Of a stretch of 64,000 bases of DNA, positions 45,600 through 52,542 are shown piece by piece. The first letter of the stretch is position 1, and each line of letters begins with the position of its first letter. Source of the DNA: Spirochaetae bacterium HGW-Spirochaetae-1 (GTDB lineage: Bacteria > Spirochaetota > UBA4802 > UBA5550); NCBI GenBank assembly GCA_002839375.1, contig PGXY01000006.1, positions 62,001 through 126,000 on the forward strand. The letters are read 5' to 3'. The notes beneath the pieces were generated by a model that saw only the letters and a program-made list of their open reading frames with translations, searched no databases and was not told where the DNA came from. A program made the translations under genes and the position numbers.

Positions 45600-45708
45600 C
45601 ATATAACACGGCGTCATGCGCTGCGCTCACTGCGTTCGCTTGGGCTTCGCCAAATTTTGCCTTCGCTACGCTACGGCAAAACGTCGCATACGCCGGGAAC
45701 GTTATGTG
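45600..45708. other. attC-like site 1
   Basis: The left arm CATATAAC-A-CGGCGT-CATGCG (45600-45620) pairs with the right arm CGCAT-ACGCCG-GGAAC-GTTATG (about 45686-45706), with the unpaired bases and spacer usual for attC. The right core is GTTATGT at 45701-45707, as in Vibrio-type sites. The central part has further self-complementary GC-rich runs. Cassette 2 begins at the GTT. Confidence 0.8.
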
Positions 45709-45783
45709 TAATGTCCGACTTGAATTTATTATTCTGATTCGCAAATCGGTAGTGGTCCCATAATTTTATTAAAGGAATGAATC

Positions 45784-46278
45784 ATGAGTGACGAAAAAAA
45801 CGAATTATCTGCACCAATGCGAGAACTTGTTCAAGATCTCGGGATTAATCCTGATAACGCACAAAACCTTGATTTAGGTGATATTTTTAAGACAGGAACA
45901 AGTCCTATGCTTTTTCTTACTAGAGTTAGCAATGTATATACGCATAGTCATCACCTTGAAAAAGAAAACTCTGACTTAAAAAAAAATTTAAACGATTATA
46001 AAGAAAAATTAGATGAAGCAAAATCACAAATTGTTGCCCTTCAAAAAAGTGAAATAATTTTACAAAAAGATAATGAATATTTATCAACGGTTGGACAAAA
46101 TTCTATTCCCGGAACAATTTTATTTTCAATGGGTAGCGTTTTTATTGGTGTCTGTGGGGGATACATTAATGCAAAAACTTATTTGCCAGCATTTATAACA
46201 GGCTTAATCGGACTTGGTTGTTCCGTTTTGGCTGGTTATTTAATCAATCAAAGACCAAAAAAAGGATTAATCAAATGA
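45784..46278 (+). CDS. Cassette 2: coiled-coil membrane protein
   Basis: A 164-residue protein: a soluble N-terminus, a coiled coil (about 55-105: HHLEKENSDLKKNLNDYKEKLDEAKSQ in pieces), then two hydrophobic helices (about 114-133 and 137-156) with a short basic end. AAAGGAA precedes the ATG. Its stop overlaps the next gene's ATG (ATGA), so the two proteins are probably made together. No known family is recognised. Confidence 0.75.
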   Translation: MSDEKNELSAPMRELVQDLGINPDNAQNLDLGDIFKTGTSPMLFLTRVSNVYTHSHHLEKENSDLKKNLNDYKEKLDEAKSQIVALQKSEIILQKDNEYLSTVGQNSIPGTILFSMGSVFIGVCGGYINAKTYLPAFITGLIGLGCSVLAGYLINQRPKKGLIK

Positions 46279-46733
46279 TTGAAAAAGAATATTATATCCC
46301 TTCAAATTTACAATGGAAAATTTGGAATCAGCGTCTTGAATTAATGAATAAAGAAATTAGAGAATATAGAATAACAAGTATTACAATGTCTACAATTGTT
46401 TGGGCTCTTGTTATAACTGGGAAATGGTTTGGTGAACCAAATAGTATGTCTTTCGTAGTAAGCATGACATTAGGTATGTCTGGTTTTCTTTGGGCTTTTT
46501 GTTATTTATACACATTGCAACTAAATAATTTTTTAATTCAAGATGTTTATTGGAGAGATGAGCCATACGATCTTGAACATGAGTCATATGCAATGATACT
46601 AAAAGAATTAGAATACAAAATAATAGCAAAGTCGAGAAGACTCAAGCTTATAAAAATGCTAATCTCAATTTCTATTATGATGACTATTGCAAGTATTTTT
46701 TCAGTAATCATTCTTAGTCGATCATTTTACTAA
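46275..46733 (+). CDS. Cassette 2: membrane protein, partner of the coiled-coil protein
   Basis: A 152-residue protein with about three hydrophobic helices (about 35-53, 58-82 and 122-147) and an amphipathic start. ATG 46275 overlaps the stop of the preceding gene by four bases. The ORF can be extended to TTG 46218, but that would overlap the neighbour. The size and helix pattern recall small effector proteins of defence systems, e.g. SLATT-like, but I cannot assign a family. Confidence 0.7.
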   Translation: MIEKEYYIPSNLQWKIWNQRLELMNKEIREYRITSITMSTIVWALVITGKWFGEPNSMSFVVSMTLGMSGFLWAFCYLYTLQLNNFLIQDVYWRDEPYDLEHESYAMILKELEYKIIAKSRRLKLIKMLISISIMMTIASIFSVIILSRSFY

Positions 46734-46794
46734 AAATAAGTTTAAAATAAATTCTATTAATTTGAGACTTACATGTAAGACGTCGGACACTACA

Positions 46795-46893
46795 CATAAC
46801 AAAGCTTACCTGCGGCGCTCGGAGTACCTCGCTTGGACTTCGCCACATTGCGGCAAAAGACCGCCGCAACGTCAAGTAAGCAATACGTTATGC
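46795..46893. other. attC-like site 2
   Basis: CATAAC-AAA-GCTTAC-CT-GCGGCG (46795-46814) pairs with GCCGC-AACGTCAA-GTAAGC-AATAC-GTTATG (46862-46892): the classical layout of two core pairs with unequal spacers. The right core is GTTATGC at 46887-46893. The region before the left core (46782-46800) is the inverted complement of the start of cassette 2 (45701-45719) in 18 of 19 bases. Confidence 0.85.
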
Positions 46894-46949
46894 AATTGCT
46901 CCCCCACTTTTTGTTGATCATTGAGGGATAATTGAATAGAAGGATTTAT

Positions 46950-48560
46950 ATGTACAGTGTGAACAATGAATTAGTTAAGAAAGCCATTAAATTTTTAAAA
47001 AAAGATATCTATGATGACTGGTTTTGTGACATTCAAAACTTTGATGATATTTTTAATGACATCAATAATATAACAAATATAATAAACGATAAGATTAGAA
47101 GTGGAAAAGGAATCTATTTAGCAGATAATCCAATATTATTTAATATCCCAAAAGAAAATGGTGCATTCAGATATACATTAGAATTATGTCCATTAGATAG
47201 ATTGGCATATCATATATTTGGAATTCAATTGATTCGTTATTTAGATCGTTCGCTTCCCTTTAATGTTTTAGGCCATCGGAAAAATTTAGATGATAAAATG
47301 TTATTCAAACCAATGATTGAACAATGGAATAAATTTGAAAACTATACAAGGGTTTCTGGAATAAATAAGCATATAATCCAAACAGATATTTCAAATTATT
47401 TTGATTATATAAATATCAACAGACTCCGAATCGAATTAATAAACTCGGCATCTGATGCAAACCTATCATCCGAAGACTTTGTAAATTGTATTTATGCAAT
47501 AGAGTCCATATACGCAATATTAAAACAAATATCATTCGATGGGGAAAGAGGCTTGCCTCAGAATAAAGATATATCTTCATTCTTAGCAAATATATACATG
47601 AGACCACTTGATAAATGCTTAGATGATGCAATTTATTTTAGATATATGGATGATATACGGATTATAGCTAATACTAGAGCGGATGCCAACCGCTATATGC
47701 TTTGCATTATAGAAGAATTAAGAAAATGTGGCTTATCATTAAATAGCAGTAAAACAAAAATTTTAATTCCGGGGAGCAACGAACATACAAATTTTTGTTG
47801 TGAAACGGATTTAGAGGCAAAAAAAACTGAATCATTGTTCAACAGCGGAAAAAGAAAGTACGTAATCGAGTCGTTTAATATAATTTATAACAATGTTATT
47901 AAATATATTGATGAGAGTAAAGTTAATGAAAGAAAATTTCGTTTTTACTCTAATAGAATAATTACATTTTTAAATGCAAAAGATATTAAAGTACCAAAAA
48001 AATTTAAAGAAGAGATTTCAAATAAATTAATCGGAGTTATTTCTGCAAGACCAGATTCTGCTGATAAAATATGTGCTTTAGTAAAAGCAATTGGGCCTTT
48101 TAAAAGATTACAAGAAGATCTTGTCAAGTGGGCTGTAACGCCTGATAATTTAACTTATGAATGGACAGTATATACAATTATTAAAACTCTTATTATGCAA
48201 TCCTATAAATCAAAAATTTTGGATAATTATTGTAAAGCTTGTTTAAATGATATCAACATTCCTGATAATATTAGGGGTATCTCAGCTGTATATTTAAACA
48301 AAAAAGCAAAAAAATCTATCATCAATTTACTATCAATAAATAATTCACATTTTTTTCAAAGACATTTAATAATTGCACTATCAGAAATTAAACCGGATGT
48401 TCTACTGCAAAATATTATTTCAGAAAAAATATTACCGGACTTTAAAGGTCAACACCAGAATCTTTATAAACTTTCTCTGAATGATAACTTCTTCTATGTA
48501 AAAGAACATGAGCGAATCACACAAAGAGAATTAATTCAAGAGTTAAAAAACTATGCTTAA
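46950..48560 (+). CDS. Cassette 3: reverse transcriptase (defence/UG-Abi-like)
   Basis: A 536-residue reverse transcriptase. Motif A is IIQTDISNYFDYIN (catalytic Asp146), motif B GLPQNKDISSFLANIYMRPLDK (201-222, in place of the usual GLPQG), motif C FRYMDD (Asp234-235), motif D GLSLNSSKTKIL. The last 260 residues are helical and could be HEAT-like, as in UG/Abi RTs; there is no maturase or endonuclease domain. ATG 46950 has AGAAGG upstream; TTG 46932 is also open. Its stop overlaps the DNA polymerase start by 8 bp. There is too little room upstream for a retron msr-msd. Priming and product unknown. Confidence 0.93.
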   Translation: MYSVNNELVKKAIKFLKKDIYDDWFCDIQNFDDIFNDINNITNIINDKIRSGKGIYLADNPILFNIPKENGAFRYTLELCPLDRLAYHIFGIQLIRYLDRSLPFNVLGHRKNLDDKMLFKPMIEQWNKFENYTRVSGINKHIIQTDISNYFDYININRLRIELINSASDANLSSEDFVNCIYAIESIYAILKQISFDGERGLPQNKDISSFLANIYMRPLDKCLDDAIYFRYMDDIRIIANTRADANRYMLCIIEELRKCGLSLNSSKTKILIPGSNEHTNFCCETDLEAKKTESLFNSGKRKYVIESFNIIYNNVIKYIDESKVNERKFRFYSNRIITFLNAKDIKVPKKFKEEISNKLIGVISARPDSADKICALVKAIGPFKRLQEDLVKWAVTPDNLTYEWTVYTIIKTLIMQSYKSKILDNYCKACLNDINIPDNIRGISAVYLNKKAKKSIINLLSINNSHFFQRHLIIALSEIKPDVLLQNIISEKILPDFKGQHQNLYKLSLNDNFFYVKEHERITQRELIQELKNYA

Positions 48561-50136
48561 TATTGCATTATTTTTCAACAACTCTCTTGAAGCGATTCCA
48601 TTTGCATTAACTTTAATTAATAATAAAGTTCGTATTATCAGAGATTTTAGGCGTTTACGTTTCCCAGATAATATTATCACTTTAGGGTACACTGATACTA
48701 TTGATTCATTTAGAAATCTAAGCATTCCATTTAACTCAACTCAAAGAAGACTTGAAATATTATATGCTTTAACAATATACTATTCTAAGGGTGACCAGCC
48801 GAAAAAATGGAAATTTCGTAAATCTGAAATCATTGGAAAATATATAGCACCTTCTGTAATCACCAACCTGAAACAATATGAAAATAGTGAGTTATCGTGG
48901 AGTGAATTTAGTAAAATTCTTTTTAGTCAAAAAACAAATTTATTAAATGCGGTTAAAAACGTATATGATCAACTTCTTACCGAATATACCCAAAATTCAT
49001 TAGATAAACTGGCTTGGCTCGAAACTGAATATTTTATTGATAATTATTTTTTAATGAATCAATATAATGGAATTATGGTTGATAAAAATAAAATTGAAAA
49101 ACAGCTTTTTGATATGAATTTTCAAAAATATTCTGCATTATTGTATTTAGAAAAAAATTATAATCTTGATATTTCGAGTTCATATTTATCTGATGAAAAA
49201 ATAGACGAACTTATACTTTCTGAGTATAAAGATTTTGAAAAGACAGAAGAAATTACTAGTTTAATTCAAGTGATTAATACTTCTGATAACAGAATTGAAT
49301 CAATAACTACAGTTAAAGAGTGCCGTATTGATTACGCAAATCTGATTAAACATTATTCTACGGATGATATCCCATATATATACCCACAATATGATGTAAT
49401 TGGCAGTAGTAGTGGTAGAATATTTATTGCAAGCCCCGGTACACAGTACTTAAAGAAATCAAAAAGAGATATATTTTTAGCACAAAATGATCATACACTT
49501 ACATATTTTGATTTTAGAAATTATGAACCTGGCATCGCTGCAGGTCTATCAAACGATAAAAATTTCATAAACTATTATAATTCAGGAGATATGTATTCTA
49601 AAATTGCATCTGAAGTTTATAATGAACCTGAAAGAAGAAAGGATGTAAAAATTTCAATCCTTATGTTATTATATGGAATGTCACCAGAATCATTACATTA
49701 CTATTTTAAAAAAAATAACAATTTCAATCCTGACGGGGTTATTCATATTTTAAACGGTTTTCAACAGTTACAAGAATGGAAAAAAAGTATTTTGGATGAT
49801 GTATTAAAGAAATATACTGTTGTTGATAAAACTTATACAAGAAAGTTTCTACCAAATAATGATTGGAAAATTAAAACATCAGCTGTGAATCATATAATAC
49901 AGTCAACAGGTTCACGGATTCTAAAGCGTTGCATTAAAGAAATTATTAATATTGAAGGAATTAAAATATTAATACCAATGCACGACGCACTTCTTTGTGA
50001 AATTATTGATAGCAGATATGTGGAAATTAAAGAACAGGTGATTCGTATAATGGAGAGCATCTTTACTGATGAAGTGATGTATGCTACCTCTAGAGTAATT
50101 GTAACAGATTTTTCAACGGAAAAAAAATTTCTGTAA
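48553..50136 (+). CDS. Cassette 3: family A DNA polymerase-like protein
   Basis: A 527-residue Pol I-type polymerase domain without 5' nuclease. Before motif A it has SSSGRIFIASPGTQYL, like SGRLSSxxPNLQ. Motif A is FDFRNYEPG with Asp320 and Glu325 in the D705/E710 spacing. Motif B is RRKDVKISILMLLYGMS with Arg362, Lys366 and Tyr374 in the R754/K758/Y766 spacing. Motif C is MHDALLCEI (His477, Asp478). No DEDD exonuclease is visible in the first 150 residues. Both catalytic Asp are kept, so it should polymerise. Overlap with the RT gene implies joint translation and joint function. Confidence 0.9.
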   Translation: MLNIALFFNNSLEAIPFALTLINNKVRIIRDFRRLRFPDNIITLGYTDTIDSFRNLSIPFNSTQRRLEILYALTIYYSKGDQPKKWKFRKSEIIGKYIAPSVITNLKQYENSELSWSEFSKILFSQKTNLLNAVKNVYDQLLTEYTQNSLDKLAWLETEYFIDNYFLMNQYNGIMVDKNKIEKQLFDMNFQKYSALLYLEKNYNLDISSSYLSDEKIDELILSEYKDFEKTEEITSLIQVINTSDNRIESITTVKECRIDYANLIKHYSTDDIPYIYPQYDVIGSSSGRIFIASPGTQYLKKSKRDIFLAQNDHTLTYFDFRNYEPGIAAGLSNDKNFINYYNSGDMYSKIASEVYNEPERRKDVKISILMLLYGMSPESLHYYFKKNNNFNPDGVIHILNGFQQLQEWKKSILDDVLKKYTVVDKTYTRKFLPNNDWKIKTSAVNHIIQSTGSRILKRCIKEIINIEGIKILIPMHDALLCEIIDSRYVEIKEQVIRIMESIFTDEVMYATSRVIVTDFSTEKKFL

Positions 50137-50145
50137 AATTATGAG

Positions 50146-50176
50146 AATCTTAATAAATATTATATTTATTAAGATT
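50146..50176 (+). terminator. AT-rich hairpin after the RT-PolA pair
   Basis: AATCTTAATAAAT (50146-50158) and ATTTATTAAGATT (50164-50176) form a perfect 13-bp stem with a 5-base loop, just after the polymerase stop. There is no long T run, so the role (terminator or structured RNA end) is uncertain. Confidence 0.5.
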
Positions 50177-50195
50177 TAGCACATTAAAAAAAAGG

Positions 50196-50312
50196 GGCAA
50201 CAGTATATATCGCGGCGTTATGCGCTATATCGCTTTAATCCTCGGCCTCCAACACATTTCCTCCTCTGCAACGCTGCGGTAAAAATGTGGCATATGCTGG
50301 GAATGTTGGATG
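50196..50312. other. attC-like site 3
   Basis: GCAACA at 50197-50202 pairs with TGTTGG (50304-50309). CGGCGTTATGCGC (50212-50224) pairs imperfectly with GGCATATGCTG (50289-50299). The right core GTTGGAT (50305-50311) fits GTTRRRY. The arms are less regular than in sites 1 and 2. Confidence 0.6.
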
Positions 50313-50328
50313 ACATTTTTGTTGCATT

Positions 50329-51273
50329 ATGGATATAAAAGTTAAAATCATATACTTGGATTGGAATGTTATTAATCATTTACATGATGGTATTTTACCT
50401 ATTGAATTGAAAAATCTATTAATAAGTTTACAGGAAGAACGAAAAATAATATGCCCTTATACAGCAGAACATCTTAGTGAATTATATAGAGATTCTGATT
50501 CAATACAAGATTCTGAGCATCGAATCCTTGCTTTGATAAAAACATTATCAGAAATTACTAAAAATATTCTATGGTATTTTGACTATAGGGATAATAACTA
50601 TTATTTTAAAAAAATACATCCTTACCAATACTATTTAAATCAGAAAGAAGAAAAAGAAGAATATGGTTTTTCTATAAGATTTCTATATAGATTGATATTT
50701 TACTTTATGAAATTTCAAACAATTAAATTTACTAGAATAATTTCGAAACAATCTCGAATTAAATTTAAGGATATTCATATAAAAACAATTTACGATCCAA
50801 ATAATCCGATTGGGAGTTTGATGTTAATAACTAGAAACTTAACTGAAATTAATACAAGAGCATTTGAACTTCAAAGAAATAAATTAAATTTATGTCCTAA
50901 GGAATTGAACAGTTTAGTGGGTGACGAATTGATAAAAAAAATTAATGATGAAATTGGTAAATGGACTAAAACACATGATTTCAATAGTATTGTGGATAGT
51001 TCACTTCAATATCAAAAGGGTGGTCAGTTCTATAAAGAAGCAGGTCTTAATACATTTTTAGAAATGATGGGTTATCACAAAGATAAAAAATCAATAACGA
51101 TAGAAAGTAAATTGTCTGATAGCAACCATCTAATATTTGGTTTAAAAGCACATACATTTATAACTCATGATAAACGTTTGTTCAATAGAGCCTTACAAAT
51201 TGCAAATATGGAAGATTTAACAACAAAGGTAATATGGGCAAAAGATGCAATAAATTACCTTGAATCTATATAA
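50329..51273 (+). CDS. Cassette 4: PIN-like nuclease-fold protein
   Basis: A 314-residue protein with PIN-like acidic residues: YLDWNVINHL near the start (Asp11), HLSELYRDSD, and near the end HLIFGLKAHTFITHDKRLFNRA. The layout is like large stand-alone PIN-fold proteins of defence islands. It stands alone in its cassette, with no antitoxin. RNase activity is inferred only. Confidence 0.65.
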   Translation: MDIKVKIIYLDWNVINHLHDGILPIELKNLLISLQEERKIICPYTAEHLSELYRDSDSIQDSEHRILALIKTLSEITKNILWYFDYRDNNYYFKKIHPYQYYLNQKEEKEEYGFSIRFLYRLIFYFMKFQTIKFTRIISKQSRIKFKDIHIKTIYDPNNPIGSLMLITRNLTEINTRAFELQRNKLNLCPKELNSLVGDELIKKINDEIGKWTKTHDFNSIVDSSLQYQKGGQFYKEAGLNTFLEMMGYHKDKKSITIESKLSDSNHLIFGLKAHTFITHDKRLFNRALQIANMEDLTTKVIWAKDAINYLESI

Positions 51274-51359: not shown

Positions 51360-51388
51360 TTGACTTTACACATAACATTGTGTAAATT
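51360..51388 (+). promoter_or_regulatory. VapBC promoter with palindromic operator
   Basis: TTGACT (51360-51365), 17 bases, TAAATT (51383-51388). Between the two boxes lies a perfect 8-bp inverted repeat, TTTACACA (51365-51372) and TGTGTAAA (51379-51386). Binding there by the antitoxin would block the polymerase. Confidence 0.6.
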
Positions 51389-51407
51389 TACCCCAGAGGT
51401 TAATCAC

Positions 51408-51605
51408 ATGGCAAGTAATTTAAATATAGATATGAAACTGTTAGATGAAGTTTATCAACTGGGAAATTTCAAAACTAAAAAGGAAGCGGTAAACGTTGCG
51501 CTTAAGGAGTATATTCAGAAGCATAGACAAAAAGACATGTTGAAATTTCTAAATAAAGTTGATTTTGATAAAGACTATGATTACAAAAAATCCAGAAATA
51601 GATGA
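51408..51605 (+). CDS. Cassette 5: VapB-type antitoxin
   Basis: A 65-residue antitoxin of the VapB family (SNLNIDMKLLDEVYQLGNFKTKKEAVNVALKEYI in pieces): ribbon-helix-helix N-terminus and an acidic/basic tail. AGAGG precedes ATG 51408; the upstream extension to 51360 would run through the operator. It overlaps vapC by four bases. Confidence 0.88.
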   Translation: MASNLNIDMKLLDEVYQLGNFKTKKEAVNVALKEYIQKHRQKDMLKFLNKVDFDKDYDYKKSRNR

Positions 51606-52039
51606 CAAAATTTATCATTGATACATCAGTATGGTCGGAAGCGCTTCGTCGAAAAAAGAATACGGTAAATTCATCAGAAACTGTTGTAAGAAAAATTATC
51701 GAAAATGATGATGAAATTGTTATTTTAGGTATTATTCTTCAGGAAATTCTAACCGGCATCTCAAATGAAAAATTATGTAGAGAGATAAAAGATATTCTGG
51801 ATGATTTTGCATACTTAGATATTACAAAGAATGACTACATTTACGCTTCCGAGTTAAGTAATAAATGCAGATCAAAAGGAATAATTGCCGGATCAATTGA
51901 CTTTTTAATAGCAAGTGCTTCCATCAGAAACGAAATACAACTGGTAACTTTCGACAAGGACTTTATTAATATCAGTAAACATTCCGATTTAAAAATTTTA
52001 GACATAGATCGTTTTCTTAAAAATAAAACTGATAAATAA
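51602..52039 (+). CDS. Cassette 5: VapC-type PIN toxin
   Basis: A 145-residue PIN ribonuclease with the acidic set Asp7 (FIIDTSVW), Glu in LQEILTG, Asp in GSIDFLIA and TFDKDF. It is the toxin of the pair and probably cuts tRNA or other RNA. Toxin-antitoxin pairs are common stabilisers of large cassette arrays. Confidence 0.9.
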   Translation: MTKFIIDTSVWSEALRRKKNTVNSSETVVRKIIENDDEIVILGIILQEILTGISNEKLCREIKDILDDFAYLDITKNDYIYASELSNKCRSKGIIAGSIDFLIASASIRNEIQLVTFDKDFINISKHSDLKILDIDRFLKNKTDK

Positions 52040-52081: not shown

Positions 52082-52213
52082 GGTCGAAAAAAACTTGAAA
52101 GTGATACCACCTCGTCATCAATTCAGTGGAAGGACATCGCAGCATTATTGATATCGATAGGTGCGGTGGCATCAATAAAACGATTTCTGGAAAACGCAGG
52201 TGTAAAACCATGA
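52082..52213 (+). pseudogene. hicA: hicA toxin, broken at start and middle
   Basis: In the frame from 52082 to the TGA at 52211-52213, the translation is clearly HicA: RKKLESDTTSSIQWKDIAALLISIGA joined directly to SIKRFLENAGVKP. The middle part of the family (about 35 residues, with the dsRBD-like core and catalytic His) is missing, and no start codon precedes it. The stop overlaps the hicB ATG by four bases, as in intact hicAB. The toxin is therefore dead. Confidence 0.85.
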
Positions 52214-52542
52214 TGGAATATAAAGGATATATTGGAATAGTAAACCATGATTCAGATGCGAAGATATTTCATGGTGATGTAATAAATACAAAAGATGTAA
52301 TTACATTCCAGGGAACTTCCGTGAAAGAAATAGAAAAAGCATTTAAAGGCTCAATTGATGATAATATAAAATGGTGCAAAGAAGAGGGTGTAAATCCCGA
52401 GAAACCACATTCAGGAAAATTCAATCTAAGGATTTCTCCGGAACTTCATAGAGAAATAGCAGTAGCTTCAACGAAAATGAATATGTCTTTGAATAAATTT
52501 GTTGAGAAAGCACTTATCGATGAATTGTCACATGTGGAATAA
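52210..52542 (+). CDS. hicB: HicB-type antitoxin
   Basis: About 110 residues: a HicB partial-RNase-H fold (YKGYIGIVNHDSDAKIFHGDV…, VITFQGTSVKEIEKAFKGSIDD) followed by a ribbon-helix-helix (FNLRISPELHREIAVASTKMNMSLNKFV in pieces). It starts at ATG 52210 or 52213. It follows a broken hicA, so it is an orphan antitoxin that might still repress DNA or counter related toxins. Confidence 0.92.
   Translation: MMEYKGYIGIVNHDSDAKIFHGDVINTKDVITFQGTSVKEIEKAFKGSIDDNIKWCKEEGVNPEKPHSGKFNLRISPELHREIAVASTKMNMSLNKFVEKALIDELSHVE

Follow-up and report, generated by a model that had tools for sequence, protein, structure and literature searches.

Among bacterial reverse transcriptases (RTs), those of class UG9 have a family A polymerase (PRK14975) as a neighbour in 94% of cases (Sharifi and Ye 2021, PMC8934634). 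In a 2014 survey UG9 fell close to the Abi lineage, though support was uncertain, and was listed for Proteobacteria only (PMC4244168). Class 1 UG RTs that bear helical-repeat domains need no nucleic acid template for DNA synthesis (PMC13174585); template-free synthesis is also described for AbiK and Abi-P2, protein-primed in the case of AbiK (PMC9508834). PADLOC holds a model for each UG9 partner, RT_UG9_small and RTasPolA, both within the DRT group. In a literature search that did not take in the main UG/Abi classification paper (10.1093/nar/gkac467), we found no functional test of UG9, so we infer its role in defence.

The window, that is, the whole 64,000-nucleotide stretch of spirochaete DNA analysed here, carries an RT gene followed by a gene for a family A polymerase (PolA), as read from the list of open reading frames and the sequence itself:

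46950 to 48560, + strand: UG9-type reverse transcriptase, 536 aa (PADLOC RT_UG9_small 1e-109; RVT_1 2e-15)
48553 to 50136, + strand: RTasPolA, predicted exonuclease-less family A DNA polymerase, 527 aa (PADLOC RTasPolA 2e-101)
48553 to 48560, + strand: 8 bp shared by the RT stop and the PolA start, ATGCTTAA, an overlap of equal length in 7/7 loci

An earlier note on this DNA had described an RT with intact motif A and YMDD that overlaps the polymerase gene by 8 bp. The overlap falls exactly where listed, motif A reads TDISNYFD, YMDD is present and Pfam RVT_1 matches. We prefer the ATG at 46950 as RT start over an alternative TTG at 46932 (giving 542 aa) because it is preceded by the ribosome-binding sequence AGAAGGA and agrees with the start in relatives. 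Promoter and terminator scans gave chance-level results only.

Against the PADLOC models, the RT scored best with RT_UG9_small (366 bits over residues 10-535), followed by UG9_large (194) and UG21 (146), which agrees with the UG/Abi (DRT) type proposed earlier; PolA reached 338 bits with RTasPolA. A plasmid UG9 RT scores 804 bits with RT_UG9_small against 366 for the window RT, which marks the latter as a divergent UG9 member. The novelty claimed for the pair does not hold: UG9 RTs are known with a PolA partner from the published UG9–PRK14975 association and from the PADLOC models (PMC8934634; PADLOC), which is one of the outcomes that the earlier note had named as refuting its reading. Judged by sequence, the window pair is a divergent branch of the catalogued UG9 + RTasPolA, a candidate anti-phage class.

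The earlier note had also called for an RT phylogeny and a search for further RT–PolA pairs. Searches with the RTasPolA model returned nearly all housekeeping PolAs, so this model was not used for judging pairing. Six further pairs are compared here, from a Methylococcaceae metagenome-assembled genome (L032), from plasmids of Dinoroseobacter (L034), Paraburkholderia (L035) and Falsirhodobacter (L036), and from two IMG/VR contigs (L039 and L120). In all seven pairs, window included, the genes adjoin, RT first and PolA second, with the exact 8-bp overlap; across these seven loci from two branches, the order and overlap bear out the suggestion of a dedicated unit. The window and Methylococcaceae copies are 63-65% identical to each other, whereas identity to the plasmid and prophage-like copies is 27-29% for RT and 23-26% for PolA. 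The seven UG9 RTs form one clade with 100/100 support in a tree of 64 RTs, where most of the other sequences are viral and few come from the nearest UG classes; within the clade, the window RT and L032 branch together, far from the plasmid and IMG/VR type. In relative pairs where it was measurable, dN/dS was ~0.04-0.08 for RT and ~0.10-0.18 for PolA: both genes are under purifying selection. By sequence they are intact and conserved, overlap in translation and are inherited together as one unit.

The pair is rare. Samples of 393, 369 and 398 genomes each held a single match, the seed genome itself; viral contigs scanned with only the window RT as query gave no match, and no phage record matched the pair. 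Restriction or nuclease genes lie close by in some relatives: in L120 the pair has two such neighbours, a DEDDh exonuclease and a restriction enzyme of Type ISP, and it lies near an MmeI-type restriction enzyme in L036 and near a pPIWI-associated nuclease in L034. The exonuclease gene (L120:4047-4928) lies upstream of the UG9 RT at a distance of 57 bp, shows a weak BRCT match and resembles the PADLOC candidate PDC-S48. Mu-like head (Phage_Mu_F) and tail (Phage_tail_S) genes adjoin the pair at L039:4933-6741, so a prophage can carry it.

GC content is 27.5% in the RT–PolA block and 30% over the whole 44.9-52.6 kb stretch, against 46-48% in the outer window and ~46% for the genome; given this AT-richness, the block is probably foreign DNA, acquired horizontally. 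A spirochaete host is supported by three FlaA-family matches in the genome, where 14 control genomes gave none. Two candidate hairpins flank the pair:

46794 to 46893, + strand: left attC-like imperfect hairpin (ACATAAC ... GTTATGC), RNA fold of -34 kcal/mol over 46775-46900
50214 to 50330, strand not assigned: possible right attC-like hairpin, from inverted repeats and fold, a weaker case

The earlier note had read the locus as an integron-type cassette able to move as one unit. In favour, the left hairpin is attC-like and has copies in the same genome, on contigs C10 and C4 (87% and 86%, partial). However, its core, GTTATGC, deviates from the attC core GTTRRRY, the right hairpin is less clear (no second copy within the window beyond its self-inverted repeat), and no integrase encoded in the genome reaches the TIGR02249 cut-off for integron integrases, the best matches falling below it. 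Mobility of an AT-rich, probably foreign block stands, whereas the integron route is only suggestive; movement of the pair as an integron cassette is plausible. Dispersed attC-like hairpins with GTTATGY- or GTTAATT-type cores occur at 45605-45712 and 46794-46893 in the window, at C10:46466-46560 and at C4:151617-151681.

Other genes of the region were recorded as well. Between attC-like hairpins, an overlapping unit at 45784-46733 encodes two small proteins with apparent membrane segments, the first also with a coiled coil, and neither matched a family above cut-off. A 314-aa protein (50329-51273) has N-terminal YLDWNVI and C-terminal FITHDKRL motifs that look PIN-like; it gave no significant Pfam or PADLOC match and is not beside the pair in the relatives examined. 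Near RT–PolA lies a VapB/VapC-type toxin–antitoxin pair (51360-52039; VapB_antitoxin 4e-16, PIN 3e-15), and a HicB-family antitoxin-like protein (52207-52542; 3e-21) sits within the same AT-rich block.

An AlphaFold2 model divides the RT into an RT domain (~1-285) and a helical C-terminal domain (~302-490), with pLDDT of ~75-90 for most of the helices at 302-490. Its best Foldseek matches were UG15/DRT4, Abi-P2, DRT9, DRT6, AbiK and AbiA. The model suggests class 1 UG/Abi architecture, an RT core with a helical-repeat C-terminal domain, and we word this as suggestive because whole-chain TM-scores against Abi/DRT structures reach no more than 0.3-0.4, and the whole-model pTM is 0.51. By analogy, this suggests class 1 behaviour, that is, DNA synthesis without a nucleic acid template. 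A VIA ranking of the same model put group II, DGR and G2L4 RT cores on top, the match to the G2L4 RT (Z 19.0, 328 residues, rmsd 7.7) being equalled by matches to other group II and DGR RTs. No RT residue for protein priming was identified; the penultimate Tyr, invariant in relatives, was considered and set aside, its invariance being partly due to the overlapping PolA start codon.

PolA matches Pfam DNA_pol_A (4e-21), and D320/E325, R362/K366/Y374 and H477-D478, named in the earlier note as motif residues of a 527-residue family A polymerase, are all present and invariant in relatives. Because the equivalents of E. coli D705, E710, R754, K758, Y766 and D882 are retained, PolA is expected to be active but unusual and non-proofreading. 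Competent active sites, also claimed for both enzymes, are borne out in appearance, the motif residues being present. Two pocket positions set all seven apart: motif B F762 (E. coli numbering) is Leu and motif C HDE is HDA (E883 to Ala) in 7/7 RTasPolA, where each of 21 host PolAs has Phe and Glu, F762 and E883 being usual in family A polymerases rather than strictly defining. Profile alignment to full-length PolAs reaches no further back than the final helix of the 3'-5' exonuclease domain, and the Asp of exonuclease motif III is absent; the earlier description of a polymerase without nuclease domains was therefore right in function, and proofreading appears to be lost.

The loss of the third motif C carboxylate and of the sugar-contacting Phe in 7/7 means that activity may be unusual, and would suit a PolA that serves as a regulator or effector (for example, by consuming dNTPs, or inactive under an RT–DNA adduct) and leaves the RT product uncopied. 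We give this a small chance, as D320, E325, R362, K366, Y374 and D478 are invariant and selection on the gene is purifying.

Because the PolA structure prediction (mean pLDDT 45) is poor outside palm and fingers, with low confidence in the first ~110 residues, we make no fold claim for the N-terminus. Across the polymerase domain, profile and model both resemble Klenow-type PolA; Pol theta and Pol nu are further matches to both. The latter matches, with the G2L4-like RT core, would fit a DNA repair or end-joining cassette in place of a defence system, RT and PolA filling broken DNA as G2L4 RT or Pol theta do; carriage by plasmids and a prophage-like contig agrees with it. We consider such a cassette improbable, since the UG/Abi class, rarity, patchy mobile distribution and restriction neighbours fit defence better.

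Nucleotide similarity between the gene pairs amounts to 69-92% and fades out where the genes end or close by. No conserved flank was found across L035, L039 and L120 (up to 2.5 kb per side, less at contig ends); a 23-bp stretch that L039 and L120 share on the downstream side was set aside, as it is not common to the other loci. Conserved flanks of the very similar L034 and L036 diverge at about the synonymous (neutral) rate. Rfam gave no match in the relatives' loci and nothing above gathering score in the window, and in a scan of synonymous variation within the genes the lowest windows lay ~2-2.6 sd below the mean, unexceptional among ~110 overlapping windows. With similarity confined to the two genes, or nearly so, no template RNA conserved in the flanks can be seen. 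Together with the Rfam and synonymous-variation results, the unconserved flanks make a neighbouring ncRNA, as in DRT2, DRT3, DRT9 and DRT10, unlikely to be present; a distant, trans-encoded or fast-changing RNA is possible. The same results count against an RT that copies a specific ncRNA, as in DRT2, DRT9 and DRT10, with PolA making the second strand. Such a scheme would draw on the intact RT core with YMDD, similar to templated group II and G2L4 RTs, and on DRT9, where the complementary strand of the product is attributed to a cellular polymerase, and we regard it as rather unlikely.

Our preferred reading, to which we assign a probability of roughly 0.4, is that the UG9 pair is a defence module in which the RT starts a strand with no RNA template encoded in cis, PolA copies it into duplex and the phage is blocked. 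That the RT makes a strand which the polymerase copies was also proposed in the earlier note, and is reasonable. The RT would begin a DNA strand, perhaps protein-primed. Upon phage infection the exonuclease-less PolA, bound to the RT or translated beside it, would extend or copy this strand into double-stranded DNA, and the duplex, or loss of dNTPs, would then block the phage or the infected cell. The PADLOC assignments, the 94% association of UG9 with PRK14975, the seven of seven paired loci in one clade and the purifying selection argue for a UG9 defence module. Defence is further indicated by what lies near the pair in relatives, namely restriction enzymes (Type ISP, MmeI-like) and the pPIWI-associated nuclease; untemplated synthesis is suggested by the unconserved flanks, the Rfam result, the Foldseek matches to Abi/DRT proteins and the precedent of class 1 UG RTs. 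For a duplex product made by two enzymes, DRT3 offers a precedent.

A more specific picture, which we hold to be doubtful, is that of a two-polymerase DNA writer, in which a PolA with an altered pocket (F762L, HDA) copies an untemplated or protein-templated RT strand into duplex. If true, it would be a mode of defence not yet shown, with a family A polymerase as the second-strand enzyme. UG9 has a built-in second, non-RT DNA polymerase, and the product of the pair would test whether DRT systems can rely for duplex DNA on a second-strand enzyme of their own, as opposed to a cellular polymerase (inferred for DRT9) or a second RT (DRT3). The conserved altered pocket of PolA may also be useful for nucleotide-tolerant polymerases.

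Among known systems, the locus is closest to UG9 + RTasPolA itself (PADLOC; Sharifi and Ye 2021), sharing best models, gene order and 8-bp overlap with the plasmid UG9 pairs. It differs in that the window and Methylococcaceae copies form a branch divergent from the plasmid and prophage-like pairs, and in its spirochaete host, as against the Proteobacteria-only UG9 of the 2014 survey (PMC4244168). DRT3 (UG3 + UG8) likewise joins two adjoining DNA-making enzymes in one defence system that together yield duplex DNA, but it uses two RTs and a cis ncRNA, whereas the window pair has a family A polymerase as partner and no visible flanking ncRNA. UG10 with an AEP primase-polymerase (AE_Prim_S_like, 61%) and CART-CAPP also combine an RT with a second, unrelated DNA polymerase; there the partner is a primase-polymerase instead of PolA, and CART-CAPP is linked to CRISPR. 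AbiK, Abi-P2, AbiA and DRT4 (UG15), the top fold matches, share the RT core and helical C-terminal domain, but act without a dedicated second polymerase.
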